NCBI RefSeq assembly: GCF_001458775.1
Contig: NZ_CZPZ01000012.1
Coordinates: 62,001 to 126,000 of the forward strand
Reading direction: 5' to 3'
DNA: 64,000 nt
Source of the DNA: Candidatus Nitrospira nitrificans
GTDB lineage: Bacteria; Nitrospirota; Nitrospiria; Nitrospirales; Nitrospiraceae
Shown: one piece after another, positions 11,424 to 60,499 of the stretch
Layout: the number at the start of each line of letters is the position of its first letter
Position numbering within the stretch: the stretch's first letter is position 1
The notes under the pieces: model-generated
Databases searched by the model: none
Told to the model about the DNA's origin: nothing
What the model saw: only the letters and a program-made list of their open reading frames with translations
Translations under genes and position numbers: made by a program

Positions 11424-14400
11424 CTAAATGACGTTCGCCAACGGAGCTGACTTGTTGTGAGTATCCTCGGCAAGGAAGGCCCGGAGGTGCTTGGTCACCT
11501 CTTCAACATGCGGTGTGACAAGGAGCTGTCCTGAATTGGTCGCTGCCACTTGCACGGCCTTGCTCCCTGCGCCGCCGAACTCCGGCCAGACATGACGGGT
11601 ATCCGTCACCGTCTCGGCTACATGCCGCTTCGACGCCACGATATTGAGAATACGACCGGGATATTTGCGAACGGCATAGCGAGCCACAGCTTGGAGCGTG
11701 GCTCGGGTTACACGTTCGACTTGGAAATTGGCAGCCAAGTCATCGTGAGGGGTTTCGCTTCGTGACAGCGACTTGAGTCTCTCGTGTTTATGCTTGATAA
11801 ATGAGCTCCAGTCTTTGACGGGCAAACTGAAGAGCCTGCGAATAGTACTCATCGTTCTCCACAGCATAAACAGGGGCAGCCCAACCCTCTTCGGCCATCT
11901 ATAACGATGTGGACGATAGGAGGAGGGATGCCAGGTATCCATCATTACCAGTGCGGCGGATTGCCCTTGCCTGATCAGTTGCCTCGCCATTTCGTACGCG
12001 ATCAGTCCACCGGTACAGCTACCAAGGATGATATAGGGACCGTTGGGGTGAATGCTGCGGATTTCTGCAAGATAATGGTTCGCCATCTCCGGCACCGATG
12101 TAAACGGCGCCTCTTTCCCGTCCAGTCCTCGTGCCTGTAATCCGTAGGACGGCTGATCCGGACCCAGCAGCTTTGCCATCTGAGCAAAGACCAAGACATT
12201 ACCCCCTACTCCGGGCACCATGAATATCGGTATGGCGTTTCCGCTCGGCTGCATGGCGACAAGCGATTGCCATGACGGTGTCCACTGCTCCTGTGAAAGT
12301 TTGGACGCGAACTCCGCAATGGTCGGCGCTTGAAACAACATTGCGAGCGGAAGGCGTCTTCCGTACACCTGTTCGAGAAGAAAAAAGAGGTGGGCGGCTT
12401 TGAGTGAATGGCCGCCGAGATCGAAAAAGTTGTCGTGGATCCCGACTTTTTGGACTTCTAATACCTGCTGCCACAAGGCTGTGAGTTGAACTTCCGTTCG
12501 ATCACGGGGACCACTGTGAACCTGCCCATCGGCGAGCGAGGAGGCCGGCGACGGCAACGCGTTCCTGTCGACCTTGTTATTGGCCGTCAAGGGTAGGGCC
12601 GTCAGAAAGACAAAGAGAGAGGGGACCATATACTCCGGAATCTCGGATCGAAGAAATAAGCGAAGTTCTTGTTGGTTTGGACCATGGCCATCATGGCAGA
12701 CCACATATGCCACCAACTGCTTCGTGCCTTGCCGATCATCCCGCGCGGTAACGACGGTCTGACGGACAGCGTGATGACGGCTCAGCGCCGTCTCGATCTC
12801 ACCCAATTCGATCCGATACCCTCGGATCTTGACCTGGTGATCCAATCGACCGAGATGCACGATGCGTCCGTCCGGGCGATACCGCGCCAAGTCTCCCGTT
12901 CGATAGAGTCTCGCAAGAGGCTTCTGAGAAAATGGATGAGGGATGAACCGCTCTTCCGTCAAGTCAGGCCTTCCCCGATAGCCCCGGGCCAGCCCATGGC
13001 CTCCGATATAGAGCTCACCGGAAACTCCGATCGGAACCGGTTGCAGGAATTGATCCAAGATATACACATCCGTATTGGCAATTGGTCTACCGATGGTGAT
13101 CTCTCGATCAGTCCGTTCGATTTTCTCGATCGTGGACCAAATCGTGGTTTCAGTCGGACCATACATGTTCCACAAGGCAACGCTCCGCTCCAGCAATGAC
13201 GCCGCAAGATCCGAAGGAAGAGCCTCCCCTCCACAGAGTACCGTCAGCCTGTTACTGCCCCGCCATCCTGTCTCAATCAGCATGCGCCATGTGGCAGGGG
13301 TCGCTTGCATGATCGTCGGCTGGACAGTTTCACAGAGATCACGCAATTGTCGTCCGTCCATCGCAACCGTTCGACCGGCGATCTCGACACGGGCGCCGGC
13401 CAGCAACGGCGCATAGAGTTCCAAGCCGAAGATATCGAAGGAGATCGTCGTAACGGAGAGCATGATATCGTGAGCGGCGCATCCCGGCTCTCGCAGTATC
13501 GAACTCAAGAAGTTCACAAGGGCGCGGTGCGGAATTTCCACGCCCTTGGGCTGTCCTGTGGAACCGGATGTATACAGAACATACGCCAGGTCGTGAGGCG
13601 TCGCGATCGGCCCTAGATTGTCGTCTGCTTCCTGCGCGATGCGCTCCTCCTCGCGGTCCAGGCACAGCAAGTGGCAGACCTGGGCATCAAACCGATCGGC
13701 GAGGGAAGCGGATGTCAGCACGACGGCGAGGGAGGCGTTCTCCGACATATACCGGAGTCGATCTCGTGGAAACTCAGGGTCGAGAGGCACATAGGCCGCG
13801 CCGGTCTTAAGCACGGCCAGCAACGCAATGACCATCTCCAAGGATCGATCGAGCCCAATACCCACCGTTACGCCAGGCTTGGCGCCCAGGGCTCGCAGAT
13901 AGCCTGCCAGCTGATTGGCCTTGGCATTGAGCTCAGCGTACCGCAGTGCCTTCTGTCCCATCGACAACGCAACGGCGTCGGGCGTCCGCTTGACCTGAGC
14001 TTCAAACAGCTGAGGAAAACACTCAGACTGTGGATACTCTCTTTCCGTGCGGTTCCACTCTTGTAACATCTGTCGGCGCTCGGACGCCGTCACGGTCGGG
14101 AGCTCGGACAGCTTGCTCTGAGGATTGGCCAATGCACTCTGGAGGAGGAGCTTATACTGTCCCAGCATCCGTTCAGCGGTCTGATGCTCGAAGAGATCGG
14201 TATTGAACGTCAGATAGGCCCTGCGGGAGAACTCCGTCTCGATCGTCAAACTGAGGTCGAATTGCGCGGCTTGCGTCTCCACCTCGAACGGCACCCAACT
14301 CAACCCTTGGACGTTGATCTCCCCGATCGGAGCATTCGGGACATTGAAGAGCACCTGCACCAGGGGGGCAGAGCTCTGGTCGCGAGAGGAGTGCATGATC

Positions 14401-17400
14401 TCGACCAATTTGTCGAACGGGAAGTCCTGATTGGTATAGGCCTCCAACGCCGTTTCTCGCACCCGGGTCATCAACTCGATAAACGTCGGATCGCCGGAGA
14501 GATCGGTACGGAGAACGAGTGTATTGACGAACGAGCCGATGATCGACTCGACCGCGGATTGAGTTCGGTTGGCGATGGGAGAGCCGACGGCCACGTCGGT
14601 TTGGCCGGAATAGCGACGCAAGAGAATCTGGAAGCAAGCCAACAGGGTCATGAACACCGTCGCATTGTGTTCCGCGCTGAATTGCTTCAGCCGTTCAATC
14701 AACGACGTGGGCAACTCCAGCATGCTGTGGGAGCCATTAAATGTTTGTACGACGGGTCGTGGATGATCAATCGGCAACGAGAGCTTGGACAGACCGGCCA
14801 GCTTCTTCTGCCAATACGCCGATTGCGCGCTGAGCCAGTCGTCGGTCAGAGAGCGTCGTTGCCACGCTGCATAGTCGGCATACTGAAGAGGGATCGGTTT
14901 TGGAGAAGGAAGTTCGCCTCGTGAAAAGGCATTGTAGAAGAACGCAAACTCATGGCCGAGGACTCCGAATGACCACTGGTCTCCGATGATATGGTGCATC
15001 GTGAGCACCAACACATGGTCCTCCGGCTCGATTTCGATCAAGAGGAACCGCGCCAGCGGGCCTTTCTCAAGGTCGAACCGCTGGTTGGCTTCCTCCTCCA
15101 CAAGCCGAATCGCTTCCTGTTGCCGTTGTTCGAGAGGCCGCTGCGTAAGATCTACTTCCACCCAATGGGGAGGGCGAAAGGCGTGGATCGTTTGGACCGG
15201 TCCCTCACCCTTCATCATGAACGTCGTTCTAAAAGCCTCATGGCGGTGACAAATGGCGTCGATCGTGCTCCGAAGGGCTGATTTATTGAGCCGTCCCATC
15301 TGTCTCGACGCAAACGGCATGTTATAGGCCGTGCTCTCTGGAGCCAGCTGATACATCAGCCACATGCGTTGTTGAGAATAGGACAGAGGGAGCGGCTGAT
15401 CTCTGGGCAACGGAATGATCGGCGGCATTACGGACGCCTGCTCCCTCTGGCGCGATCGCGCCACTTCTTCGGCCAATGCCGCAATCGTCGGTCGCTCAAA
15501 CAGCGCCGGAAGCGAGATATCAACCTCGAAGAGTTCACGGATTCTGGAGACGAGCTGGGTCGCCAGGAGCGAGTGGCCTCCCTGCTCGAAGAAATGATCG
15601 TGAATGCCGGCCTCCGGGACTTGAAGCACGGATTTCCACAACTCGGCCAGGGATTCCTCGACCTGATTTCTCGGAGCCATTCTGGCGGACGCTTGACCGG
15701 TTGTGTGTTCCGGAGCGGGAAGCGCATGGCGATTCACTTTTCCGGTGGCGCTGAGCGGCATCGTGTCGAGCCACAGAACGACGGATGGCACCATATAGTG
15801 TGGGAGTCGAGTCGCCAGATGACCGCGAACCTGGTCGAGCTTTTCCCTGAGCGACGACTCGCCGGCGACATAGCCGACCAACCGGTGTTGATCCGGTTTG
15901 TCCTGACGAAGCAGCACCGCGGCGTGATGCACACCCGGAAAGTTACTCAGCACATATTCAATTTCCCCCAGTTCGATGCGATAGCCACGCAGCTTGACTT
16001 GTTGATCCACCCGTCCAAGAAATTCCACGTTGCCGTCGGCGCGATACCGAGCCAGATCACCGGTCCGATACAGTCTGGCGCCGGCTACATAGGGATTCGC
16101 AAGAAACCGCTCCTGGGTCAACTGCGGCTGGTTGACATAGCCGCGGGCCAAACACGCTCCTCCGATATAGAGTTCTCCCGGCACGCCGATGGGCATCGGC
16201 TGCAAACCGGCATTCAGCACATAGAGTTGCATATGGTCGATGGGTTTACCGATCGGTACCCGAGCTCCGGCTTCCTCACGAGTCGCGCGATACACGCTGC
16301 ACCAGACCGTGGATTCCGTCGGGCCATATTCGTTGTACAGCGTGGCATGGGGCAGGAGCTGGTAATGTCGTCGCACGAGTTCAAGTGGCAGGCTCTCGCC
16401 GGCAGTAATGACGACACGAAGCGAGTCCAGCTGAGCGCTCAACGTTTCGCCCAGCACGGCATGGTACAAAGACGGGACCCACACGACGTGCGAGATGCGA
16501 TGATGCTCGATGAGCGCCGCCAGCTCCGTGGGGTCGCGATGGGCGGTTTCCGATGGAATAACCAATTCCCCCCCGTGCAGCAACGTCCAAAAGATGCCTG
16601 TCACAGACCCATCAAAGGCCAGCGAGAAGGTCAGCAAGAATCGGGAGACCGGGTCCGGATAGTACTGAAGCCTGGCATGAAGAGAGGTCACCAGACTGCG
16701 GTGTGTCACGGCCACACCCTTGGGCTGTCCCGTCGAGCCCGAGGTGTAGATGATATAGGCGAGCTGATCCGGGGAAATGGAACGCGCGGGGTTCTCCTCG
16801 TCCGCCCCGTTTCCTGTGGGTAGAGAAAGGGTTTCTACATCATGGATCTGGCCGCGATAGCTATGTAAATGGTTACGGAGATGCGCCTGCGTGACCACGA
16901 TGGAAATGTGAGCGTCCTCCAGCATGAGTTGGAGGCGATGACCGGGGGAGGATGGATCCAGGGGGACATACCCACCCCCTGCTTTGAGAATGCCCAAGAG
17001 ACCCACGAGGGCCTCCACCGAGCGCTCGACACAAAGACCCACTGGGATGTCCGCGCCGACCCCTAACTTCTGGAGCGCGTGCGCCACTTGATTTGCCCGT
17101 CGATTCAGCTCTTGGTAGCTGAGGGTTTGGTCTCCATAGGTGACAGCGGGTGCCTGGGGAGTCCGCTCCGCCTGTGCCTCGATGAGTGCATGGATACCGC
17201 TAGCCGGGGAGGGCGGCTCGTTCCAGGTGAGGAGAACGTTCCGTCTCTCCTCGGCGGTCAGCAATGAAAGTTGGTCAAGACGGGCCTCAGGTTTCTTGAG
17301 GAATTCCTCAAGCAAGATCTCCAGCTGTCCCAGCATTCGGTCCACCGTCGAGTCGTCAAAAATCGTGGAATCATGGAGAAACGCCAAGTCCAGGCCATCC

Positions 17401-20400
17401 GCCTTGTTGACCACCATCAACACAAGGTCGAACTCCGACGCCGTCGGCTCCCAGGGGAGATGAGCGACCTCAAGATCCTTGACGGTGAACGTGGCCAAGG
17501 GGTCGTCTTCACACACGATCATCACGTTGAAGAGCGGAGACAGTGACCGCTCACGCTGTAGCGACAGCGCCTCGATCACCTCTTCAAACGGGAGTTCTTG
17601 GTGGTCGTAGGCCTGCACCACCACACGGCGTATCTGCTTCAATAGCTCTTGTCCTGTCAGCCCATCCGAAAGTTCAGCCCGCAACGCCACCGTATTGACG
17701 CAATATCCCATCACGTCTTCGAGTTCTCTCCGACGCCTGCCGGCCACGATCGATCCAACCACGACATCGGACTCTTGGGTGTAACGATGGAGCCACGTCG
17801 CAAAGACGGCATACAGCACCATGAACGTCGTGAGGTTTTGGCGCTGGCAGAAATGATCGAGGTCGGCTGAAAGCTCCGGGGAGAGCGATCGGGACCGCGC
17901 GCCTCCCTCGAACGTGCGCACGCGAGGCCGCTGACGATCGATCGGTAGCTCAACGGGCGGCCGGGCGCCGCTCAATTGCCGTATCCAGTAGGCTCGATGG
18001 ACTTCACGAAGGCCTTGCTCAAGTCTGGTTCTCTGCCAATCGGCATAGTCCGCATACTGAACGGTCAATGTGGGCAGTAGGGCCTTTTGAACATCACCAC
18101 CTGCTTCCCATAGAAGGGCCAGCTCCTTCCAGAAGATGCGGAGAGACCACCCGTCGGCGACGAGGCGGTGGAATGTCAGCGCCAGGACATGCACATCGTG
18201 CTGAAGCGACAGCAGGGTCACTCTGAATAACGGCCCTTGGCGCAAGTTGAACGGGTGGCTCCTCTCCGCCCGTAGGAATTGCCGCACCTGAATGTCTTGG
18301 TCCGCAGGGTCCGATGTTTGGAAATCTTGCCGTCTTATTGTGACGATCGCCTCGCCGGAGACTTCCGCAAATCCCTCGCCCCGCTCCGATTCGAAACGAG
18401 TTCGAAGAATCTCATGACGACCGGCGATGGCGCGCACCGATCGCTCCAACACGTCGGGGTTGACCGACCCCCGGATGCGCGCGCTCATGGAAATATGGTT
18501 GATCGCGCTCCCGGGATGCACTTGCTCCAAGAACCACAGTCGCTGTTGAGAAGGACTGAGCGGAATCCTGCCTTCTCTTGTAGATGCCGAGGGATGCGGA
18601 ACGAGGGGTATTCGAGTCCCGCCGTCGCTGCCTGCGTCCCCACGCCTCTCCGCGGCCCGGTCCGTGTCATCCGGACTCGTGCTCGGTTCACCGATCCGAG
18701 CGGCCAGCGCGGACAAGGTCGAACATTCGAACAGCACGCTGAGAGGGAGCTCAATGTGGAAGACGTCGAGGATACGCGCAACGACCTGTGCGGCAAGGAG
18801 CGAATTGCCGCCGAGCGCGAAGAAGTTCGCGTGGCGGTGCGGAAGGGGTCCTCCAAGCACCTCTTGCCAGATCTCGGCCAGCCTTGTTTCGGCGCTGGTT
18901 TGTGGACTCTCGCTCGATATCACGTCGGTCTCAGCGTTTCGATCGGACTCCAGCGTACTCGATCCGACGACGGCGAGCCGGCCGGCCTCGAAGGCGGCTT
19001 TGCAGGCGCCTCGCTGAATTTTTCCGCTGGAGGTTCTTGGAATCGTGCCGGACTTGATCAGCGCCACCGCGTGGATTTCGAGTTCATATTCGTCAGCCAA
19101 CGCGCGACGGATGCAGCCCGCCACCTCCGCCAGGTCGGATTCAGGCACCTGCTTCTCGATCTCATGGACCAGCACCACACGCTCTCCGGTCTTGTCCTCG
19201 ATCGAGAAGGCCGCTCCATATCCTCGCCGCAAGCCGGGGTGTGCTTGCTGGGCCGACCACTCCAGATCATGGGGATAATAGTTCCGTCCACGCACGATGA
19301 TCAGATCTTTGAGCCGTCCGGTCAGGAACAGTTCTCCGCGGCGGAGAAATCCCAGATCACCGGTTCGTAAATAGGGACCCTCACTCGACCCAGCGAGAGC
19401 GGCGTTAAATGTGGCGTCTGTTTCTTCTGGTTTGCCCCAGTATCCGGTGCCGATCCCGGTTCCGGCCAGCCACACCTCTCCCACCACGCCGGATGGGCAC
19501 TCGGCGTGAGTCACAGGATTCACAATCCGTACATGCGTCTCTTCGAGAGGCTCCCCGCATCCGACCAATGTCCGCGTGCCCTGTGCTGAGGCAGGAGACT
19601 CTTTGACGATCGAGTCGGCCAATGCGCCGGCCTCAACGTGCAAGAAGCTCGGCTCCGCTCCCGCCCTTTTCACCGTCACCAAGAGCGTGGCTTCAGCGAG
19701 TCCATATGCCGGGGCAAACGTCGTTCGCCGGAAGCCATATCGACCAAAGGTGTTGATAAACTGCTCGACCGTATTTGGATGGATGGGTTCGGCGCCGCAA
19801 CTGGCGACCAGCCACGTGCTCAAGTCAGCTCGCCACTCCGTCTGTTGGCGCGCAGCCCTGAGGCAAGCCTCATAGGAAAAATTCGGTCCCCCGCTGTGGG
19901 TAATCCCAAATCGAGACACCGCATCGAGCCAGCGTAATGGCCGCCGGAGGAACGTGACGGGCGACATCAGATAGGCGGGAATGCCGGCGTAGAACGGCGC
20001 GATGATTCCGTGCAGTAATCCATAGTCATGGAAATAGGGCAACCAGCAGAGGGACCGGCTGTTGTCCGCCACTCCTCCGGCCAGACTCAAGGCCCTGCAG
20101 TGAGCAAGTACATTGCCCTGGCTGATCATGACACCGCGAGGAGTAGCCGTCGATCCTGAAGTATATTGCAGATAGGCCAGGGCGTTCCTGTGAGGCCGTG
20201 GCGATTCAACCGCATCGACTGAAGTGTGGGGCTGATCTGTTGCGATCCACGTGATCGGACCCGCCTCGTCGGCGATCGCAAGCTCCGAAGACAGAGCCAT
20301 GATGCTTGAAGTCGTGAGAACCAGCGACACCTGGGCATCCTCGATAATGCTGCGCAGTCTGGGCAGAGCATGTTTCCGCCTGATGGGATCGGGAGCCGGA

Positions 20401-20684
20401 GCGGGAACCGGCACAACACCGGCATAGACACATGCCCACAAAGCGCAGGCGGCATCGAGTCCCTGAGGGTAGAGCAGAAGGGCTCTGGTTCCCGGTCGAG
20501 CCACGTGTGCGAGACGGCCGGCCAGCGAGTGCACGGTCCCTTCGAGTTGAGCATAGGTCAGCTGACTTTCAATCTCGAGGTTGTCGCGAAGAAGCGCATA
20601 GGCAAGCTCCTCCGGCTGTTGCCGGCATCGATGCTCGAAGAGATCAGAGAGGTTGTAGATCGTCAGAGGAGGAAGTTTAGACAT
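11424..20684 (-). CDS. Lipopeptide synthetase: FAAL-ACP-C-A-T-C-A-T-TE
   Basis: This is one uninterrupted frame of 3086 residues. In order: fatty-acyl-AMP ligase (about 1-590, TSGSTATPRG near 183); carrier (LGGNS near 628); condensation C1 (about 705-1150) with HRLVADG near 839; adenylation A1 (TSGSTGQPKG near 1318); carrier (GGHSLL near 1705); condensation C2 with HHIIGDQ near 1898; adenylation A2 (TSGSTGQPKG near 2378); carrier (LGGHS near 2758); thioesterase with GSCTGG near 2890. It would load a fatty acid and add two amino acids. The A2 specificity residues read D-I-L-Q-L-G-M-I-W, as in glycine-activating domains. Changed active sites are described under findings. The product is unknown. 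Confidence 0.93.
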   Translation of the reverse strand: MSKLPPLTIYNLSDLFEHRCRQQPEELAYALLRDNLEIESQLTYAQLEGTVHSLAGRLAHVARPGTRALLLYPQGLDAACALWACVYAGVVPVPAPAPDPIRRKHALPRLRSIIEDAQVSLVLTTSSIMALSSELAIADEAGPITWIATDQPHTSVDAVESPRPHRNALAYLQYTSGSTATPRGVMISQGNVLAHCRALSLAGGVADNSRSLCWLPYFHDYGLLHGIIAPFYAGIPAYLMSPVTFLRRPLRWLDAVSRFGITHSGGPNFSYEACLRAARQQTEWRADLSTWLVASCGAEPIHPNTVEQFINTFGRYGFRRTTFAPAYGLAEATLLVTVKRAGAEPSFLHVEAGALADSIVKESPASAQGTRTLVGCGEPLEETHVRIVNPVTHAECPSGVVGEVWLAGTGIGTGYWGKPEETDATFNAALAGSSEGPYLRTGDLGFLRRGELFLTGRLKDLIIVRGRNYYPHDLEWSAQQAHPGLRRGYGAAFSIEDKTGERVVLVHEIEKQVPESDLAEVAGCIRRALADEYELEIHAVALIKSGTIPRTSSGKIQRGACKAAFEAGRLAVVGSSTLESDRNAETDVISSESPQTSAETRLAEIWQEVLGGPLPHRHANFFALGGNSLLAAQVVARILDVFHIELPLSVLFECSTLSALAARIGEPSTSPDDTDRAAERRGDAGSDGGTRIPLVPHPSASTREGRIPLSPSQQRLWFLEQVHPGSAINHISMSARIRGSVNPDVLERSVRAIAGRHEILRTRFESERGEGFAEVSGEAIVTIRRQDFQTSDPADQDIQVRQFLRAERSHPFNLRQGPLFRVTLLSLQHDVHVLALTFHRLVADGWSLRIFWKELALLWEAGGDVQKALLPTLTVQYADYADWQRTRLEQGLREVHRAYWIRQLSGARPPVELPIDRQRPRVRTFEGGARSRSLSPELSADLDHFCQRQNLTTFMVLYAVFATWLHRYTQESDVVVGSIVAGRRRRELEDVMGYCVNTVALRAELSDGLTGQELLKQIRRVVVQAYDHQELPFEEVIEALSLQRERSLSPLFNVMIVCEDDPLATFTVKDLEVAHLPWEPTASEFDLVLMVVNKADGLDLAFLHDSTIFDDSTVDRMLGQLEILLEEFLKKPEARLDQLSLLTAEERRNVLLTWNEPPSPASGIHALIEAQAERTPQAPAVTYGDQTLSYQELNRRANQVAHALQKLGVGADIPVGLCVERSVEALVGLLGILKAGGGYVPLDPSSPGHRLQLMLEDAHISIVVTQAHLRNHLHSYRGQIHDVETLSLPTGNGADEENPARSISPDQLAYIIYTSGSTGQPKGVAVTHRSLVTSLHARLQYYPDPVSRFLLTFSLAFDGSVTGIFWTLLHGGELVIPSETAHRDPTELAALIEHHRISHVVWVPSLYHAVLGETLSAQLDSLRVVITAGESLPLELVRRHYQLLPHATLYNEYGPTESTVWCSVYRATREEAGARVPIGKPIDHMQLYVLNAGLQPMPIGVPGELYIGGACLARGYVNQPQLTQERFLANPYVAGARLYRTGDLARYRADGNVEFLGRVDQQVKLRGYRIELGEIEYVLSNFPGVHHAAVLLRQDKPDQHRLVGYVAGESSLREKLDQVRGHLATRLPHYMVPSVVLWLDTMPLSATGKVNRHALPAPEHTTGQASARMAPRNQVEESLAELWKSVLQVPEAGIHDHFFEQGGHSLLATQLVSRIRELFEVDISLPALFERPTIAALAEEVARSRQREQASVMPPIIPLPRDQPLPLSYSQQRMWLMYQLAPESTAYNMPFASRQMGRLNKSALRSTIDAICHRHEAFRTTFMMKGEGPVQTIHAFRPPHWVEVDLTQRPLEQRQQEAIRLVEEEANQRFDLEKGPLARFLLIEIEPEDHVLVLTMHHIIGDQWSFGVLGHEFAFFYNAFSRGELPSPKPIPLQYADYAAWQRRSLTDDWLSAQSAYWQKKLAGLSKLSLPIDHPRPVVQTFNGSHSMLELPTSLIERLKQFSAEHNATVFMTLLACFQILLRRYSGQTDVAVGSPIANRTQSAVESIIGSFVNTLVLRTDLSGDPTFIELMTRVRETALEAYTNQDFPFDKLVEIMHSSRDQSSAPLVQVLFNVPNAPIGEINVQGLSWVPFEVETQAAQFDLSLTIETEFSRRAYLTFNTDLFEHQTAERMLGQYKLLLQSALANPQSKLSELPTVTASERRQMLQEWNRTEREYPQSECFPQLFEAQVKRTPDAVALSMGQKALRYAELNAKANQLAGYLRALGAKPGVTVGIGLDRSLEMVIALLAVLKTGAAYVPLDPEFPRDRLRYMSENASLAVVLTSASLADRFDAQVCHLLCLDREEERIAQEADDNLGPIATPHDLAYVLYTSGSTGQPKGVEIPHRALVNFLSSILREPGCAAHDIMLSVTTISFDIFGLELYAPLLAGARVEIAGRTVAMDGRQLRDLCETVQPTIMQATPATWRMLIETGWRGSNRLTVLCGGEALPSDLAASLLERSVALWNMYGPTETTIWSTIEKIERTDREITIGRPIANTDVYILDQFLQPVPIGVSGELYIGGHGLARGYRGRPDLTEERFIPHPFSQKPLARLYRTGDLARYRPDGRIVHLGRLDHQVKIRGYRIELGEIETALSRHHAVRQTVVTARDDRQGTKQLVAYVVCHDGHGPNQQELRLFLRSEIPEYMVPSLFVFLTALPLTANNKVDRNALPSPASSLADGQVHSGPRDRTEVQLTALWQQVLEVQKVGIHDNFFDLGGHSLKAAHLFFLLEQVYGRRLPLAMLFQAPTIAEFASKLSQEQWTPSWQSLVAMQPSGNAIPIFMVPGVGGNVLVFAQMAKLLGPDQPSYGLQARGLDGKEAPFTSVPEMANHYLAEIRSIHPNGPYIILGSCTGGLIAYEMARQLIRQGQSAALVMMDTWHPSSYRPHRYRWPKRVGLPLFMLWRTMSTIRRLFSLPVKDWSSFIKHKHERLKSLSRSETPHDDLAANFQVERVTRATLQAVARYAVRKYPGRILNIVASKRHVAETVTDTRHVWPEFGGAGSKAVQVAATNSGQLLVTPHVEEVTKHLRAFLAEDTHNKSAPLANVI

Positions 20685-21087
20685 GGAGGTGAGACACAGA
20701 CAGCCCTTGAACCGCTACGAATATCCGCTCCCCAAAATCCGTCTATCGATGAGTACAAAAGTAGAATGATTGATCATAAATGGAAAGAAGTTCTCGTTTT
20801 TCGACCGGTTCTGAAATAGACCACACGCATCGTGCGAGCGCTCGTACCTGGACGAGGAACCCCTATCAACAAACTGATGCACCGGTCACGCTCAGCGGTG
20901 CAGACTGTAGCATCTTGCGCCAGCAGGCGGGGAGGTCCTGGGGTATTTATCGCCAATTCAGCTCCCTATCGCGCGCTCCATCCTAGCAAAACCATCCAAC
21001 CAGTCGATACATAAAGAGAAAACTCCCTAGGTCCGTTAAGAGACCATGGCACATTGATCGCAAGGTTTGGCTTCGAAGGGAGTGCGG
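20685..21087. other. Intergenic region between divergent synthetase and cytochrome genes
   Basis: No gene is seen. It holds the synthetase promoter region (minus strand), a near-perfect palindrome GTGCGAGCGCTCGTAC at 20832-20847 that could be an operator, and near its right end the sigma-54-like element of the cytochrome gene. The left part (20740-20820) is locally AT-rich. Confidence 0.5.
21047..21062 (+). promoter_or_regulatory. Sigma-54-like promoter
   Basis: The sequence TGGCACATTGATCGCA fits the consensus TGGCACG-N4-TTGCW with the invariant GG and GC correctly spaced; mismatches are A at position 7 and C at position 13. It lies 26 bases before ATG 21088. A closely similar element precedes the related cytochrome gene at 55098. 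Confidence 0.5.
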
Positions 21088-21477
21088 ATGCAGATCAGGC
21101 GATCACTGGTAACCTGTTGCGCAATCTTAGTCGGTATGGTCGGACTGGGGTTCAGCAATCTTGGCGTGAAAGAGCTTGCTGTCACGACACAGGAGGGTGA
21201 TCCAGTCAGTGGACGAGAAATCTATGCGAACACCTGCATCCGCTGCCATGGAATCGACGGGAAGGGGGCACTCGGTATCAAACTTGTTCCACCTCCGGCG
21301 GACCTCACTTCACTCACCGTTCAGAGTCGGCTCGATGGGACATTGTTTCGACGAATTCATGGAGGAAAACCCAATACCGCCATGGGTGCATGGAAACATG
21401 CGCTCTCCGATGAGGAAATTTGGGATGTCCTGGCCTATGTGCGCACATTCGGGGTCGAGTCCGGTGGGCAACCGTAA
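21088..21477 (+). CDS. Monoheme class I cytochrome c
   Basis: This encodes 129 residues from ATG 21088, behind GAAGGGAG. A signal peptide (about 1-25) is followed by the heme site CIRCH and the motif PPPADL, then TAMGAWKHALSDEE, whose Met is the likely distal heme ligand, and a C-terminal helix IWDVLAYVRTF. It should be a soluble or anchored periplasmic electron carrier. Its closest relative in the window is the cytochrome at 55098, which shares TAMGAWK and the promoter type. Confidence 0.9.
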   Translation: MQIRRSLVTCCAILVGMVGLGFSNLGVKELAVTTQEGDPVSGREIYANTCIRCHGIDGKGALGIKLVPPPADLTSLTVQSRLDGTLFRRIHGGKPNTAMGAWKHALSDEEIWDVLAYVRTFGVESGGQP

Positions 21478-27960: not shown

Positions 27961-27987
27961 ATCCCTGTCGCATTCTGCGACAGGGAT
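27961..27987 (+). terminator. Strong hairpin after the cytochrome gene
   Basis: ATCCCTGTCGCA, a three-base loop TTC and TGCGACAGGGAT form a perfect 12-bp stem, 23 bases after the cytochrome stop. The following ATTTCG is only weakly T-rich, so it may act as a terminator or as an RNA-stabilising 3' hairpin. Confidence 0.7.
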
Positions 27988-28093: not shown

Positions 28094-28109
28094 TGGCACG
28101 GACTTGGCT
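28094..28109 (+). promoter_or_regulatory. Sigma-54-like promoter
   Basis: TGGCACGGACTTGGCT differs from the consensus TGGCACG-N4-TTGCW only at position 13 (G for T). The GG and GC dinucleotides are 10 bases apart as required. It lies 42 bases before the YtxH-like gene at 28152. Confidence 0.5.
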
Positions 28110-28151: not shown

Positions 28152-28463
28152 ATGCCAAATCAGGACGCCAAGTGTTCACCAGAAACCGTTGTCCTCGCAT
28201 TTCTCGGCGGAGCGATCGGGGGGATGATTGCCGGTATCCTTCTCGCTCCCAGGTCGGGCGAGGAAACGCGTCGTGAATTAAAGAGCCAGGCTCGAAGGAC
28301 GGAAGAAGACATCATCGAGAAGGCCAAAGAAGCGCGCGCCGCTCTTGATGAGGTCATTGAGAGTGGTAAGCAGTTTGTGGATGAAAAGCGGGCCGATGTC
28401 GAAGCGGCGGTGAAAGCTGGTCGGGAAGCGTTCAAGGAGAAAATGGAGAAGTGCAGTAGCTGA
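28152..28463 (+). CDS. YtxH-like stress protein
   Basis: This encodes 103 residues from ATG 28152, behind GGAGGATTTGTC. A single membrane helix (about 12-31, LAFLGGAIGGMIAGILLAP) with the family phrase LLAPRSGEETR is followed by a long charged helix with repeated Glu, Lys and Ala. YtxH-type proteins are stress-induced and small; their molecular role is not settled. The DksA-like gene follows after 28 bases. Confidence 0.82.
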   Translation: MPNQDAKCSPETVVLAFLGGAIGGMIAGILLAPRSGEETRRELKSQARRTEEDIIEKAKEARAALDEVIESGKQFVDEKRADVEAAVKAGREAFKEKMEKCSS

Positions 28464-28491
28464 CACGACCATCATGAGGAGGGGTAGAGCG

Positions 28492-28848
28492 ATGCTAATA
28501 GTCGACAATATTCGAAAGAAGCTGATCACTCAACGGCGTGAGCTGTTTCGGGAAGTGGCTAGGACGGAAGAGGATCTGCGCTGGCTCCAAAGCGATATCG
28601 AAAGCGAAGTGGAGGAGCGGGGGCAGGAGGAGACTATGGTTCGGCTGCTCGATCGCCTGGACGGGCGAGCGAAGGCCGAGATCGAGGCGATCGACCGAGC
28701 GCTCTTCAAGCTGGGGGCTGAACAGTACGGTCGATGTGAGCAATGCAGAATGGCCATCCCGCAATCCAGGCTGGAGGCGGTCCCGGCGGCCGCCATGTGC
28801 ATGCCTTGCGAACAGGCGGAGGAGACCCAGGCGGCGCTGAGGAAATAA
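28492..28848 (+). CDS. DksA/TraR-family zinc-finger protein
   Basis: This encodes 118 residues from ATG 28492, behind AGGAGGGG; an upstream ATG at 28474 is in frame. A helical hairpin (about 1-75) is followed by the C4 zinc finger CEQC, then IPQSRLEAVP and CMPC. Family proteins enter the RNA polymerase secondary channel to change promoter response, or act in stress. The DxxDxA acidic tip of E. coli DksA is not clearly present, so the function may differ. Confidence 0.85.
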   Translation: MLIVDNIRKKLITQRRELFREVARTEEDLRWLQSDIESEVEERGQEETMVRLLDRLDGRAKAEIEAIDRALFKLGAEQYGRCEQCRMAIPQSRLEAVPAAAMCMPCEQAEETQAALRK

Positions 28849-39718: not shown

Positions 39719-40192
39719 TCAGGCGATTTTCACTTCAATCGCCTTAGGCTTGGCCTTCTCCGACTTTGGAAGGTGCACTTTCAGCAGGCCGTCTTTGTAC
39801 TCGGCGTTGACCTTGGACCCGTCGGCGTCCTCGGGGAGGGTAAAGCTCCGTATGAAACTGCCGTAGGCCCGCTCGACACGGTGATACTTCGTCCCTTTTT
39901 CTTCCTTCTCGTATTTCCGCTCGCCCGTGATCGTGAGGACATCGTCGTTCACATTCAACTTGATGTCTTCTTTCTTCATTTCCGGGATCTCGGCTTTGAT
40001 GACGTACTCCTTGTCATCTTCCGAGATATCCACCAGCGGCGACCATTCCGCCACGGTGATAGCCTCCTGCTTGTCGCCACGGGAAGGAACCGATGTACGG
40101 CCGAAGTAACTCGAAAGTCGTTTCTCCATCTCCTCGAGTTCCTTGAATGGATTCCATCGCGTCGGCGGGTCCCATCGTGTCAGTGCGCTCAT
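39719..40192 (-). CDS. Hsp20/alpha-crystallin small heat-shock protein
   Basis: This encodes 157 residues from ATG 40192, behind AAAGGAGG with 8 bases spacing; ATG 40198 is too close. The alpha-crystallin domain (about 50-155) has WSPLVDISEDDKEYVIKAE, LTITGERKYEKE and AEYKDGLLKVHLPK. It binds unfolded proteins without ATP. A sigma-54-like element lies upstream at 40251. Confidence 0.95.
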   Translation of the reverse strand: MSALTRWDPPTRWNPFKELEEMEKRLSSYFGRTSVPSRGDKQEAITVAEWSPLVDISEDDKEYVIKAEIPEMKKEDIKLNVNDDVLTITGERKYEKEEKGTKYHRVERAYGSFIRSFTLPEDADGSKVNAEYKDGLLKVHLPKSEKAKPKAIEVKIA

Positions 40193-40250: not shown

Positions 40251-40266
40251 TGCATCGACGGTGCCA
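40251..40266 (-). promoter_or_regulatory. Weak sigma-54-like promoter upstream of hsp20
   Basis: Read on the minus strand the bases are TGGCACCGTCGATGCA. GG and GC are correctly spaced; mismatches are C at position 7 and A at 12. It is 59 bases before the hsp20 start, so it is plausible but less convincing than the two cytochrome elements. Confidence 0.3.
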
Positions 40267-40486
40267 GGGGGAAAAAGAGGAATGTCGGCGGGACACCTTC
40301 CAGGAAACACGGAGAGTTAGATCGCTGTTGCCCGGCAAAGACAGCTATGTGAACTGTGGCATTACGGGACAGTCGCGCGCGTGAGCCTGTCGCCTCATTC
40401 ACCATTGATCGGTGTAGACTAAGATGTGAGGTGGACCGATTCTTATCGTGTAAGTCCGGCTCGTACGAGAAAGGAGGGACCCCATC

Positions 40487-40684
40487 ATGATTGGAACAGG
40501 CGCCGGGAAGAGCCGTGTATGGGGTGATCGTTGCCATCGTTGTGGCGGACTGATGGTTCCCGAACAGGTGTTAGAAATCCGGTCAATGGACTTCCGTTGC
40601 ATGAGTTGCGGTGAGCGTATCGATCCCGTGATTCTTGCCCATCGTGAAAGACATTCCATACGAATGGAAGCAAAACGCTCATGA
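40487..40684 (+). CDS. Small zinc-ribbon protein
   Basis: This encodes 65 residues from ATG 40487, behind AAGGAGGG. Two Cys pairs, CHRCGG and CMSCGE, form a zinc ribbon. The rest is basic. It may bind nucleic acid, but nothing closer is recognised. It lies upstream of hydB in the same direction. Confidence 0.7.
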   Translation: MIGTGAGKSRVWGDRCHRCGGLMVPEQVLEIRSMDFRCMSCGERIDPVILAHRERHSIRMEAKRS

Positions 40685-53730: not shown

Positions 53731-54786
53731 ATGACCGATAACAAATCTTATGAGCCGGCTTGTCCGTTGCCGATCTCGGCAAAGAACACGGTGCAGCTCG
53801 CGCACGGCGGGGGCGGGCGGCTCATGCAGGAGTTGGTTCAAAACGTATTCGTGCAGGCATTTGGCAATCCGCTGCCGGACTCCTTGCATGACGGCGCAAC
53901 ATGGCCTGTGGAGAAAGGCACGCTCGCCTTCACTACAGATTCCTACGTGGTGCGTCCGCTGTTTTTTCCCGGCGGCGATATCGGAAGTCTGGCGGTGAAC
54001 GGCACGATCAACGATCTGGCGATGTGCGGCGCGAAGCCCCTTTATCTGAGTGCGGCGTTCATTCTGGAAGAAGGACTGAGTTTGGACGTGCTCCAGCGAG
54101 TCGTGCGCTCGATGGCCGAGGCAGCGCGGGCAGCTGGTGTACCGATTGTGACCGGCGATACGAAGGTTGTGGATCGAGGTAAGGGCGATGGGATCTTCAT
54201 CAACACGGCTGGGGTTGGTCTGGTGCCGGCCGGAGTCCGCGTGCTGCCGACGTTGATCCAACCGGGCGACGCCGTTCTCGTGAGCGGTGATCTTGGGTCC
54301 CACGGCGTGGCGGTACTGAGCGTGCGGGAAGGACTGACATTCACGAGCAATATCGAAAGTGATTCGGCGCCGTTGCATCATATTGTTGCTGACCTACTCG
54401 AGAGCGGCATCGACATCCATTGTCTGCGCGATCTTACCCGTGGCGGGCTGGCCAGCGTATTGAACGAACTGGCCCTTGCAGCGAAGGCGGGCATGATTGT
54501 GGAGGAGATAGCCATTCCGGTGAACGAGCCGGTGCGTGGAGCCTGTGAGCTGCTAGGCCTCGATCCGCTCTATGTGGCGAATGAGGGGCGCTTCGTCGCG
54601 ATGGTCCCGGCGCCGCAGGCCGAAGCCGCGCTGGCGGTGATGCACCGGCACAAGACAGCCAGCTTGGCGGCTCAGATCGGGACGGTGGCAGACCGCGATC
54701 CTCCGATGGTCGTTCTACGGACTGTTGTCGGCACGCATCGTGTCCTCGATCTGCTGTCGGGCGAGCAACTGCCTCGCATTTGTTGA
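53731..54786 (+). CDS. hypE: Carbamoyl phosphate-derived cyanation protein HypE
   Basis: This encodes 351 residues. The PurM-like ATPase shows [44 protein letters not shown] and [13 protein letters not shown]. The C-terminal PRIC carries the cysteine that is carbamoylated and dehydrated to thiocyanate. HypE works with HypF and passes CN to HypC-HypD. The HypE gene is the last of the hyp set here. Confidence 0.96.
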
Positions 54787-55097
54787 GCCAAGCAGGAGGA
54801 CAGCAAGCCGATCATCAGGCCCCACCAACTCTCAGCTGTCTTCAAGAGTTATTGCCCCGCTTGATGCAATCTCATCTCTGAGTATGACGGCCCCACTGCG
54901 GCTGTGGCGTTTCGCGACAGTGATCGGTTGACCTTCCGTGGAGTTTTTCCCGACGCTACACCGGTATTGCATTGTAGACGATGCGAAGTCTTGTGCTTTC
55001 AACACTTTCAGCTTGGTCGGAGAGGCATGTAGGGTTTCATCCAATGGCACAATGATTGCGCATTGATCCTTCAAGGGTGTTCTGTTCAAGGAGGGTT
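54787..55097. other. Intergenic region between hypE and cytochrome gene
   Basis: No gene is supported. A minus-strand frame of 85 residues is present but has no recognisable pattern. The right part contains the sigma-54-like element of the next gene. Confidence 0.5.
55045..55060 (+). promoter_or_regulatory. Sigma-54-like promoter
   Basis: TGGCACAATGATTGCG fits TGGCACG-N4-TTGCW with only A at position 7 and the final G differing. The invariant GG and GC are correctly spaced. It lies 38 bases before ATG 55098, which has a strong AAGGAGGG site. It is the best sigma-54 match in the window. Confidence 0.6.
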
Positions 55098-55466
55098 ATG
55101 TCATCACGATCCATGGTCTTGTCGGTCTTGTTTACGCTGTTCTGCTTGGGTGGTGCTCATGCTGCATCGGAGGAGAGCAGCAGTCAAAAGGCGTTACGTG
55201 AACACTACGATCTTCAAGAGGGCAAGCGTCTCTACGAGCAATATTGCCGGTTTTGCCATGGAGAACAGGGGAAAGGCAAGGCCTTTGATGTGACTCCCCC
55301 GCCGGCCGATCTCACGAGTCCCGCCGTTCAGCAGAAGTCAGATTTCGACCTCACACAGATCATTCACGGAGGTGAGCAGGGCACCGCGATGGGAGCCTGG
55401 AAATGGACCCTGTCTGACAGGGACAAGCAGAATGTCCTCCGGTACATCCGATCGTTGGCTCAATGA
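55098..55466 (+). CDS. Monoheme class I cytochrome c
   Basis: This encodes 122 residues from ATG 55098. The signal peptide (about 1-22) is followed by CRFCH (about 51), PPPADLTSPAVQ and GTAMGAWKWTLSDRDKQ, with Met as probable ligand. It is closest to the cytochrome at 21088 (shared PPPADLTS, TAMGAWK) and shares its promoter type. Its periplasmic electron partner is unknown. Confidence 0.9.
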   Translation: MSSRSMVLSVLFTLFCLGGAHAASEESSSQKALREHYDLQEGKRLYEQYCRFCHGEQGKGKAFDVTPPPADLTSPAVQQKSDFDLTQIIHGGEQGTAMGAWKWTLSDRDKQNVLRYIRSLAQ

Positions 55467-56131: not shown

Positions 56132-56989
56132 ATGAACGCGTCTTTCACCGCTCGGCTGCTTCTTCTCCTGATCCCGCTGCTGATGACCCTTCAGAGTTGC
56201 AGCAATATTGTGAATCCAGGAAGTCGAGGGCTGCGGTGGTATCCCCTTTCCAGCGGATTAGCGAAAGAACCGCTCAAGGAAGGATTTTACTGGCGAGCGC
56301 CTTGGAACGATGTCTTCGTCTATGACACGAGATGGAAAAGCTTTAGAGAAAAGGTGGATGCGCTGACCGCGGACGATCTGCCTGTTACCGTCTATGCCAC
56401 GATCACGATGCGCCCCATGCCTGATGAAATCTATTTTCTGGCTCAGGAAGTGGGGCCTGAATGGTACAAGCAGCTGGTTCATCCGCAACTGTTGTCGGCG
56501 GTGCGCGGTGTGGTCGCGAACTACTCCATGGTCACCCTCCCGGAGCGCAGCAGTGAAATCGGGAACAAGATCGAAGCGGTGGTGGTTGAAGCATTGAAGG
56601 GGCGCCATCTGGACGTGTACAACGTGGCCCTTTCGGAAATGGAATTCTCCCAGATGGTCTTGCGGGCCATCGAACAGAAGCAGGCGAAGGAGCAGGAGAA
56701 AGAGCAGAAGAACTTCGAAGTGGTCATTGCGGAGCGCAACGCCGAGATCGCTCGGATTCAAGCCAAAGGAGAGGGCGATTCGTTGAAAATTCGCGCGGAA
56801 GGCGAATCCGACAGCATGAGGATCCGCGCCGTGGGGCAGGCGCAGGCGCAGGAGATCATCACCAAGACGCTGACGCCGACCTATTTGCAGTTCAAGCTTT
56901 ATGAAAACTCCAATGCCAAGACCATCATCGTACCGGAAAGGCTCAATGTTCCGCTGATTCTGAGTCCGGGCGCCGATCACCCGAAATAG
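56132..56989 (+). CDS. SPFH/prohibitin-family lipoprotein
   Basis: This encodes 285 residues from ATG 56132, behind GGGGAGGG. A hydrophobic signal ends in LQSC, suggesting a lipoprotein. The SPFH domain (about 35-200) includes EGFYWRAPWNDVFVYDTRW and VTVYATITMRPMP. A coiled coil rich in Glu, Lys and Gln (about 185-245, AEGESDSMRIRAVGQAQAQ) follows. SPFH proteins form large membrane rings. The CBS protein gene follows after 8 bases. Confidence 0.85.
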   Translation: MNASFTARLLLLLIPLLMTLQSCSNIVNPGSRGLRWYPLSSGLAKEPLKEGFYWRAPWNDVFVYDTRWKSFREKVDALTADDLPVTVYATITMRPMPDEIYFLAQEVGPEWYKQLVHPQLLSAVRGVVANYSMVTLPERSSEIGNKIEAVVVEALKGRHLDVYNVALSEMEFSQMVLRAIEQKQAKEQEKEQKNFEVVIAERNAEIARIQAKGEGDSLKIRAEGESDSMRIRAVGQAQAQEIITKTLTPTYLQFKLYENSNAKTIIVPERLNVPLILSPGADHPK

Positions 56990-57842: not shown

Positions 57843-59849
57843 ATGACACCCAAAGCCGCCAAAAAAGAGCGTTGGGTGAGGGCACGACCGCTTTCGCCGG
57901 TATCCCACGCCGAAGATCGGCAAGGGAAGGCGGTCGAATCGGCAAAAGACGATTTCTTCGCCGAAGCCTTCCGCCTAAGTCCTCACCCGATCGGTATCAC
58001 GGAACTTGAGACCGGGGTTTGTCTGGAAATCAATGACGCCGGTCTGGAGACGTTCGGCTTTCACCGGGACGAAGTCATCGGAAAGACGACGTTGATGTTA
58101 GGGATCTGGCCTGATCCTCGTGAGCGGGTCCGGCTCATCGATCGATTGAAATCTGAAAAGTCGGCCATAACTCTTGAAGTGTCGCTGCGGATGAAGAGCG
58201 GTGAATCGCGACAATTTCTCATTTCCACAGACTTGATCACGCTCGGGGGAACGCCTTGTCTCCTGACGATAGGCAATGACATTACCGAGCGCAAGAGGGC
58301 GGAGGAGGCGCTGCATCAGACCCATGAAGAGTTGGAACAACGCGTCCAGGAAAGAACCGTCGACCTCGAGCGAGCCAATGCGGCGATGCGGGATAGTGAG
58401 CAGCGGTTCCGTTTGTTCATCGAGCATGTGCCGGCTGCCATTGCGATGTTTGACCGCAACATGCGGTATTTGGCGGCTAGTCGCCGTTGGATGGAAGACT
58501 ATCGGCTCACCGGAGCTATCCTCGGCCAATCGCATTATGACCTGCTTCCCGTGATTGCACCACGATGGAAGGAGATCCATCGCCGCGGACTGGCGGGAGA
58601 AATTCTGAGCGCAGATGAAGACCGGTTCGTTCGAGATGATGGCTCCCCGCAGTGGATCACCTGGGATGTTCGCCCCTGGTATAGCGGCGATGAGGTCGGC
58701 GGCATCGTGATTGCCACGGAAGATGTGACGGCTCGCGTGGAAGCACAGAACGCCTTGCATGAAAGGAAGGAACGGTCCGACCAGGTCATTCAGTTGGCCA
58801 ACTTCGGCATTTTCGATCATGACCACCGCACCGGAAAAATGTACTGGTCTCCCGCGATGAGAGAAATCTACGGAGTGGGGCCGGATGATCAAACGTCTTT
58901 CGAGGGGTATATCCAATTACTGCATCCGGAAGACCGCGAAGCAGTGGTGCTGGCCGTCAAGCAGGCTCAAGATCCTACCGGTGACGATCTCTTTTCGGTA
59001 GAACACCGTGTGGTGCACCGTGACGGGAGTGTCCGGTGGGTGAGTTTTCGGTCATGGACGTTATTCGACAATGAAGGGCCGGAGCGTCGCCCTACGCGCA
59101 CCTTGGGGGCGATGATCGATATCACAAAACGGAAACAGGCGGAGGAGGCGCTTCATCGCAACCAGCTGGAATTGCATCTGCAGCAAGTGCAATTGGAAGA
59201 ACTGACGTCTAAGCTGCTGGCGGCGCAGGAGCATGAGCGGAAGCGAATTGCCCGTGATCTGCACGACGATGTGAGCCAGCGATTGGCCGCCTTGGTCTTG
59301 GAAGTCGCATCCTTGGAACAGCATCCTTCTACTGTATCCGGTGGGCTTGCTCGATCGCTGGCGCCACTTCGTGAACAATTGGAGCAGCTGTCTGACGATG
59401 TGCACACGCTCGCGTACCGGCTTCATCCCTCGCTGTTGGAGCACGCAGGATTGCGCCCGGCGGTCGAGGACCATGTTCAGCAGGTTTCTCGGCGCACGGG
59501 CCTGCCCATTCATCTGAAGATTCTTGATGTTCCGAACGCGGTGCCGCTTGATCAGGCGACCTGTCTCTTCCGCGTCATGCAGGAAAGCGTCCAAAATGTG
59601 GTGAAACATGCGCAGGCCACGGTCGTGACGGTCCAGCTCCGTGGGTCATCAAAGGGAGTCGCTCTGTCCGTCGTCGATAATGGGAAGGGATTTGACCCAC
59701 AGGACCTGCGCACCCATCAACAGGGGTTGGGATTGAGCAGCATGGAAGAACGGCTGCGACAACTACACGGGTTCTTTCGAATTCAATCTCGCCCATCCCA
59801 CGGCACCAAGGTCTGTGCGTGGGTGCCTTGCGAGGTGAAGGTCGCATGA
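57843..59849 (+). CDS. Sensor histidine kinase with three PAS domains
   Basis: This encodes 668 residues. PAS1 (about 45-155, GITELETGVCLEINDAGLE), coiled coil, PAS2 (about 185-300) and PAS3 (about 305-425, LLHPEDREAVVLAV) lead to a HisKA_3 domain. The phosphorylated His is in ERKRIARDLHDDVSQRLAAL (about 473). HATPase: VMQESVQNVVKHAQA, then VDNGKGFDP and GLGLSSMEERL. This NarX/DegS-type kinase has no membrane helix, so the ligand is sensed in the cytoplasm. Confidence 0.92.
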   Translation: MTPKAAKKERWVRARPLSPVSHAEDRQGKAVESAKDDFFAEAFRLSPHPIGITELETGVCLEINDAGLETFGFHRDEVIGKTTLMLGIWPDPRERVRLIDRLKSEKSAITLEVSLRMKSGESRQFLISTDLITLGGTPCLLTIGNDITERKRAEEALHQTHEELEQRVQERTVDLERANAAMRDSEQRFRLFIEHVPAAIAMFDRNMRYLAASRRWMEDYRLTGAILGQSHYDLLPVIAPRWKEIHRRGLAGEILSADEDRFVRDDGSPQWITWDVRPWYSGDEVGGIVIATEDVTARVEAQNALHERKERSDQVIQLANFGIFDHDHRTGKMYWSPAMREIYGVGPDDQTSFEGYIQLLHPEDREAVVLAVKQAQDPTGDDLFSVEHRVVHRDGSVRWVSFRSWTLFDNEGPERRPTRTLGAMIDITKRKQAEEALHRNQLELHLQQVQLEELTSKLLAAQEHERKRIARDLHDDVSQRLAALVLEVASLEQHPSTVSGGLARSLAPLREQLEQLSDDVHTLAYRLHPSLLEHAGLRPAVEDHVQQVSRRTGLPIHLKILDVPNAVPLDQATCLFRVMQESVQNVVKHAQATVVTVQLRGSSKGVALSVVDNGKGFDPQDLRTHQQGLGLSSMEERLRQLHGFFRIQSRPSHGTKVCAWVPCEVKVA

Positions 59850-60499
59850 ATCGCCCCCGGATCCTAATGGCCGATGATCATGCCATCGTCCTAGCCGGAC
59901 TTCGTAAGCTCGTGGAAGCCGAGGGTGAAGTGGTCGGCATGGTGGAGGACGGGCGAGCATTGGTGGAAGCGGCGCAGCAGCTTCGTCCCGACATCGTATT
60001 GTTGGATATCTCGATGCCGTTGCTCAACGGACTCGATGCGGCGCGCCAGATAAGTAAGCTGGTGCCGGAAAGCAAGCTGATCTTCCTGACCATGCATGCC
60101 ACCCCCACCTATGCGACCGAAGCATTTAAGGCCGGGGCCTCGGGCTATCTGATAAAGCGGTCCGCCGCCGTGGAGCTCAAGCAAGCCATTCAGGCGGTGA
60201 TGAGAGGACAACACTATATGACCCCGCTTATCACGAAAGATGTCTTGGCAGCGACACTCCAATCCTCCGGTGGTCAGCCCAGTAAGCCCTTGGTGACTTC
60301 CCTGACACAGCGGCAACGGGAGGTGTTACAGCTCGTGGCCGAGGGAAAAGGTACCAAGGCCATCGCCTCGATCCTGAACATTTCTGTAAAAACCGTGGAG
60401 TTTCACAAGTTTCGCATTATGAGTGAACTCGATCTCCACTCGACTGCCGAGCTCGTCAAATATGCGATCGCCGAGGGCCTGGTAAGTGTATCCTCGTAG
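59846..60499 (+). CDS. NarL/FixJ-type response regulator
   Basis: This encodes 217 residues starting at ATG 59846, overlapping the kinase stop (ATGA). The receiver has acidic DD at residues 10-11, phospho-Asp at about 54 (LLDISMP) and Lys near YLIKR. The C-terminal LuxR helix-turn-helix is LTQRQREVLQLVAEGKGTKA. It is the kinase partner. Its regulon is unknown. Confidence 0.93.
   Translation: MNRPRILMADDHAIVLAGLRKLVEAEGEVVGMVEDGRALVEAAQQLRPDIVLLDISMPLLNGLDAARQISKLVPESKLIFLTMHATPTYATEAFKAGASGYLIKRSAAVELKQAIQAVMRGQHYMTPLITKDVLAATLQSSGGQPSKPLVTSLTQRQREVLQLVAEGKGTKAIASILNISVKTVEFHKFRIMSELDLHSTAELVKYAIAEGLVSVSS

Follow-up and report, generated by a model that had tools for sequence, protein, structure and literature searches.

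Which promoter serves the c-type cytochrome gene at the end of the [NiFe] hydrogenase cluster of Candidatus Nitrospira nitrificans, and which regulator acts on it, was the question raised by this locus. The genome comprised 4.1 Mb in 36 contigs, and the window analyzed was a stretch of 64,000 nucleotides on one of them (contig C12). The cytochrome gene began 311 bp past the end of the hypE-type gene. The hydrogenase subunits matched sulfhydrogenase models far below the cut-offs, so that “group 3b” here denotes a likeness and not a classification. Genes for acetate kinase, an acyl-CoA ligase, and a universal stress protein were located near the cluster. Downstream of the cytochrome, a PAS histidine kinase and a LuxR-type response regulator were found at 57843-60499; 8 of 15 named loci contained the latter, with 92-98% identity. 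The minus strand at 11424-20684 held a 3086-aa frame that read, by eye, like a non-ribosomal peptide synthetase.

The first-pass annotation had placed a sigma-54-like promoter, TGGCACAATGATTGCG, at 55045-55060, and the motif was found exactly there, on the plus strand; its distance from the gene, 38 positions from the end of the core (55060) to the ATG (55098), was also confirmed. The core had the TGGCAC/TTGC-type form, with GG and GC ten bases apart, and a consensus of this type is also given in the searched text of PMC12316311. The ATG at 55098-55100 was preceded by GGAGGG. Transcription from sigma-54 promoters starts about 12 bases beyond the GC and needs RpoN; by the -24/-12 convention, the start of the cytochrome transcript is predicted near 55071. 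RpoN was encoded in the genome (one match to PF04552, the RpoN DNA-binding domain, E 2e-57), as were 25 matches to PF00158, 23 of them strong.

Taken alone, the sigma-54 motif was no rarer than chance. Matches with up to two mismatches numbered 27 in the window versus 29.85 expected, seven window sites scored at least 19 versus 3.6 in Markov sequence, and exact cores numbered seven genome-wide versus nine for the reversed control. Six of these seven cores were within about 220 bases 5' of a gene start that was plausible by eye, L035 being the exception. The claim that the site was the best RpoN match in the window was fair, but the site did not stand alone: of the matches listed, no other kept both TGGCAC and TTGC without a mismatch, but its weighted score of 19.5, calculated with our own weights on the sigma-54 consensus, tied for third place, against 19.8 for the sites at 28094 and 21047. 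Matches with one mismatch were found at 21047, 28094, and 40251-40266 (minus strand). The site rose above chance because it was conserved in the relatives and paired with an upstream palindrome (Table 1).

Table 1. Coordinates of the promoter, palindrome, and gene features (window positions unless a contig is named)
Feature	Position	Strand	Remarks
hypE-type gene	53731-54786	same as cytochrome gene	named from AIR-synthase domains and place after hypD
Palindrome TGTGGCGTTTCGCGACA, proposed enhancer/activator site	54903-54919		centre about -160; conserved in relatives
CAA-N4-TT, possible DNA-bending (IHF-like) site	55000-55008		centre about -67; positions 86-93% conserved in 28 anchored rows
Sigma-54 (-24/-12) promoter core TGGCACAATGATTGCG	55045-55060	+	consensus match; kept in 28/30 genus loci
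c-type cytochrome gene, served by the promoter	55098-55466	+	122 aa; Pfam Cytochrome_CBB3 and Cytochrom_C above cut-off
Palindrome TGTAGCATCTTGCGCCA	20906-20922		score 11.3
Sigma-54 site TGGCACATTGATCGCA	21047-21062	+	141 bp after palindrome 20906
Second c-type cytochrome gene	21088-21477	+	
Palindrome TGTCGCATTCTGCGACA	27966-27982		score 28.9
Sigma-54 site TGGCACGGACTTGGCT	28094-28109	+	128 bp after palindrome 27966
YtxH-family protein gene	28152-28463	+	
DksA/TraR-type zinc-finger protein gene	28474-28848	+	next after YtxH gene
Palindrome TGTGGCATTACGGGACA	40355-40371		score 15.6
Sigma-54 site TGGCACCGTCGATGCA	40251-40266	-	105 bp from palindrome 40355
Hsp20 small heat-shock protein gene	39719-40192	-	
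Receiver and second activator pair	C12:22280/22402		palindrome and sigma-54 site; same contig as window
NtrC-type response regulator, proposed activator	G000:C12:18532-19908		outside window

The cytochrome search covered 79 genomes of the genus and gave 36 places with close orthologs (E below 1e-46), 30 of which, our own included, were taken as loci for the promoter comparison. TGGYAY-N5-TTGC was kept in 28 of these 30 loci, its first base 47-62 bases upstream of the start codon, among variable flanking bases (mean identity 59%). The other two, L030 and L031, had neither the sigma-54 core nor the palindrome. The per-base conservation of the site (98%) was partly by construction because its rows were selected by the motif, and 28/30 is the unbiased figure. 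In 27 of the 30 loci, the promoter followed a palindrome with a score of at least 8 at a distance of 134-143 bp, and L016 had a weak version at 133 bp. All 15 named relatives with the cytochrome were labelled Nitrospira or Nitrospiraceae. Conservation in the relatives ruled out a chance match and, together with the encoded RpoN and activator domains, upheld the first-pass reading of the site as a sigma-54 promoter. A further point for this reading was that a consensus scan for sigma-70-type sites listed none in the interval from hypE to the cytochrome gene, on the plus or the minus strand.

The same scan spoke against expression of the cytochrome from a sigma-70 promoter, which, like read-through from hypE, would leave the sigma-54 match inert. 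Read-through would be favored by the 311-bp gap between two genes on the same strand, where no strong terminator was called and two weak stem-loops ended inside hypE. However, the core and the palindrome were conserved amid variable flanks, and they were also kept at L272 (identical in place to L003), where the cytochrome was not located behind hypE, which ruled out read-through as the sole explanation and left this whole alternative extremely improbable. In L080 (G054, 1501-1760), the palindrome was retained behind a hypE-type gene, the sigma-54 site was low-scoring, and the cytochrome frame looked broken; the promoter and the gene seem to have decayed together.

The palindrome, with the core TGTNGCATTYYGCGACA, was first noticed in alignments of the cytochrome upstream regions, and this enhancer-like element and the wider regulon went beyond what the first-pass annotation had seen. 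The copy in the window scored 17.3, weaker than most of the copies in the relatives. A position 134-143 bp upstream of the promoter is a common one for a sigma-54 enhancer, and a dyad-symmetric site was found at a steady distance upstream of several sigma-54 promoters. Judged from these sequence features, it is very probable that the core at 55045-55060 is a genuine sigma-54 promoter and that the upstream palindrome is its enhancer. Between the two, the conserved CAA-N4-TT might, as a guess, be a DNA-bending (IHF-like) site; the bases here departed from the full IHF consensus, and only CAA-N4-TT was conserved.

A degenerate form of the palindrome matched the genome exactly at three places, each of them on contig C12, and gave 21 matches with up to two mismatches versus 14 for the control. 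The half-palindrome plus promoter gave seven matches versus five for the control, of which only the YtxH site and the cytochrome 55098 site carried the whole palindrome. The third exact palindrome, near-perfect with a score of 24.0, was located at C12:126676-126692 (L041, 1501-1517), 676 bases beyond the end of the window. It was flanked by a glutathione-transferase-like frame on one side and RND-efflux-like genes on the other (both named by eye), and neither strand had a strong sigma-54 site within range. A stricter palindrome matched 44 times in 31 of the 79 genus genomes, and its reversed control never did. Thirty palindrome loci were sorted: 16 matched the cytochrome, nine matched YtxH with a neighboring cytochrome, and five matched neither. 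The scoring matrix was trained on 33 pattern matches that included the cytochrome, YtxH, and L079 sites, which makes the palindrome scores of these sites circular in part. Independent of the training were the Hsp20, receiver, and 20906 sites and, with L079 excluded, 28 of the 30 regulator-gene loci.

The palindrome might instead belong to a different kind of regulator, such as a repressor, with no tie to sigma-54. The surroundings of the palindrome were examined in 33 locus rows representing 32 distinct places, namely 31 of the 44 matches and the window site. No strong sigma-54 site was in range in three of the rows, L041 (own genome), L079, and L080, and the palindromes at the regulator gene described below were close to its start, mostly 51-107 bases before it, both of which would suit a repressor. 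Against this, 29 of the 33 rows had a sigma-54 site scoring at least 19 at 128-146 bp in one orientation (L067 had a weaker one at 121 bp), a spacing too regular for unrelated signals, and a repressor-type role is thus improbable.

The sigma-54 promoter with an upstream palindrome was found in front of other genes as well. A scan of the whole contig C12 gave eight palindrome and promoter pairs, whereas 399 kb of contig C1 gave none and six Markov runs gave one; when only the palindrome (score of at least 8) was counted, C12 had 15, C1 had four, and the Markov runs had 1-9. We discarded three of the eight pairs by judgement: the one at 18447 because its sigma-54-like match was inside the regulator gene, and those at 56201 and 404066 because of weaker sites. 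The remaining five look convincing (20906/21047, 27966/28094, 40371/40266 on the minus strand, 54903/55045, and C12:22280/22402), and the four within the window had its four best sigma-54 scores. A pair of the 27966/28094 type was present in nine of 30 genus loci, every time before YtxH, and the YtxH and DksA/TraR-type genes were assumed to be co-transcribed. Outside the matrix training, the Hsp20 pair was kept in 18 of 30 loci of the relatives, with the promoter missing from nine, and the receiver-gene pair was kept in 22 of 30, the first T of the -24 box often being lost in the relatives. The shared pair before several stress and redox genes points to one common regulator. The structural operon of the hydrogenase was also considered as a target of this pair and was rejected, since the best plus-strand score before hydB was 17.5 (at 40520).

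In other genomes, G040 had a palindrome and promoter pair before a universal stress-type protein gene. In L287 (G046) and L288 (G048), an ATP-synthase beta-type gene, identified by eye, had a palindrome-like element and a sigma-54 site about 165 bases ahead of it and is possibly a further target in that lineage. A spaced-pair search over 79 genomes matched three, a number that does not count the regulon because only start-to-start spacings of 95-125 were covered; one of the three, L289, had no open frame longer than 60 aa after the pair.

The regulator was suggested by G044 (L079), in which the palindrome stood directly before an NtrC-type regulator gene. Its ortholog here, C12:18532-19908, had receiver (PF00072), sigma-54 activation (PF00158), and Fis-type HTH (PF02954) domains above the cut-off. 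Downstream of it came a PAS histidine kinase, with the receiver and second activator next in order. In 29 of the 31 genus loci, palindromes with a score of at least 5 stood before the regulator gene, mostly as a pair about 32 bases apart; in our genome the two copies were weak (10.3 and 5.6). A further 20 regulator loci comprised one within the genus (L271), one off target (L263), and 18 outside the genus; such palindromes were found in 14 of the 20 and in 13 of the 18. The regulator loci were scanned over 400 bases each, and among background bins of 350 bases a score of 5 was reached by 14 of 1140 on C1 and eight of 912 on distal C12. The regulator was present in 65 of 79 genus genomes (E 1e-150) and 153 of 196 genomes of the order. 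Of 34 loci, 33 had the same sequence in the region of its recognition helix. The activator loop, by which such proteins contact sigma-54, read GAFTDA instead of the usual GAFTGA in all 34, a form shared by two further activators of the genome.

With 23 strong activators encoded, another of them could bind the palindrome, for example the second one in the cluster (L092:6822-8288), whose transcription unit itself bears a palindrome and promoter pair. The promoter and enhancer would then be real, and the NtrC-type regulator a mere target or neighbor. The palindrome was indeed present in G005 and G074, which had no regulator match at the cut-off. The absence of the regulator from three other genomes with the palindrome (G078, G059, and G035), however, would fit contig ends, as judged from the place of the receiver gene. 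The frequent paired palindromes before the regulator gene resembled autoregulation, and a score of 8 was reached at none of 20 other strong activator loci (21 exist outside the regulator cluster); two of these loci exceeded 5 somewhere in 3 kb, at chance level (7.4 and 5.2). Binding by another activator is therefore unlikely, though less so than a repressor-type role, and the NtrC-type regulator C12:18532-19908 appears to be the likeliest activator of the palindrome promoters.

Taken together, we consider it probable, at roughly three chances in four, that the sigma-54 promoter at 55045-55060 serves the cytochrome gene and that the NtrC-type regulator acts through the palindrome on this gene, its own gene, and the other targets. 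From the sequence elements found, we infer the steps of regulator binding, DNA looping, and complex opening as follows. A signal would pass through the PAS histidine kinase to the NtrC-type regulator, which, once phosphorylated, would bind the palindromes about 160 bases upstream of the transcription start. The DNA between the palindrome and the promoter would loop, and the ATPase domain of the regulator would open the closed RpoN-polymerase complex. By way of a similar operator the regulator would also act on its own gene, and it would co-activate the genes for the second cytochrome c, the YtxH/DksA-type proteins, Hsp20, and the receiver with the second activator. Our guess for the signal, low oxygen or energy stress, was made because of the company of these genes (hydrogenase, acetate kinase, acyl-CoA ligase, universal stress protein, and Hsp20) and because group 3b hydrogenase and several UspA proteins of Nitrospira marina are reported to rise together at low oxygen (PMC8115632).

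More tentatively, the regulator and the palindrome might constitute a sigma-54 regulon across the Nitrospirales for survival of low oxygen or energy stress, clustered at the hydrogenase region, to which some lineages add a universal stress protein (G040) and a second ATP-synthase beta-type gene (G046 and G048); this broader proposal is somewhat less likely than not to be right. Through sigma-54, it would play the part that DosR plays in mycobacteria. Nitrospira are major nitrifiers, and little is known about how their alternative energy and stress genes are switched on. A named regulator with its operator and promoters would tie an orphan cytochrome to the low-oxygen response of PMC8115632 and make that protein-level response directly testable.

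The operator, the regulator, and the target set appear to be undescribed in the literature searched, most subscription papers being outside the search. The palindrome TGTNGCATTYYGCGACA, in four spellings, was not found there, and the searched texts, including PMC8115632, PMC3162934, PMC6606698, PMC12316311, and PMC12342949, named neither the operator nor, for Nitrospira, a sigma-54 regulon with these genes. The main text of PMC12316311 had no “nitrospir”, and the searched text of PMC12342949 had no match for sigma or RpoN. The low-oxygen response of N. marina concerned another species, and “sigma” did not occur in the main text (PMC8115632). Sigma-54-dependent regulators have been reported beside the nxr genes of N. 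moscoviensis (PMC6606698); these are likewise Nitrospira sigma-54 activators, but were discussed for the nitrite oxidoreductase copies, with no operator seen in the text consulted.

Among known systems, the best NCBIfam matches of the regulator were AtoC (496.8 bits) and ZraR (458.9 bits), and AtoS was among those of the kinase (294.4 bits). These scores were well below the curated cut-offs (714, 760, and 646), so the system is not the same as AtoC/AtoS or ZraR/ZraS. For none of the 25 NCBIfam models listed did the regulator reach the curated cut-off, and these included NtrC proper (NR-I; 457.9 bits versus 558.6 for ntrC). In kind the architecture is already known, since sigma-54 promoters with enhancers are well known, the model being glnA, whose sigma-54 promoter is served by the NtrC-type enhancer-binding protein. 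As at glnA, a -24/-12 core here had a palindromic site 100-200 bp upstream, and, like NtrC, the proposed activator was a response regulator with AAA+ and Fis-type HTH domains and had operator copies before its own gene. Unlike in the glnA/NtrC system, the targets here were cytochrome, YtxH/DksA-type, and Hsp20 genes instead of nitrogen genes.
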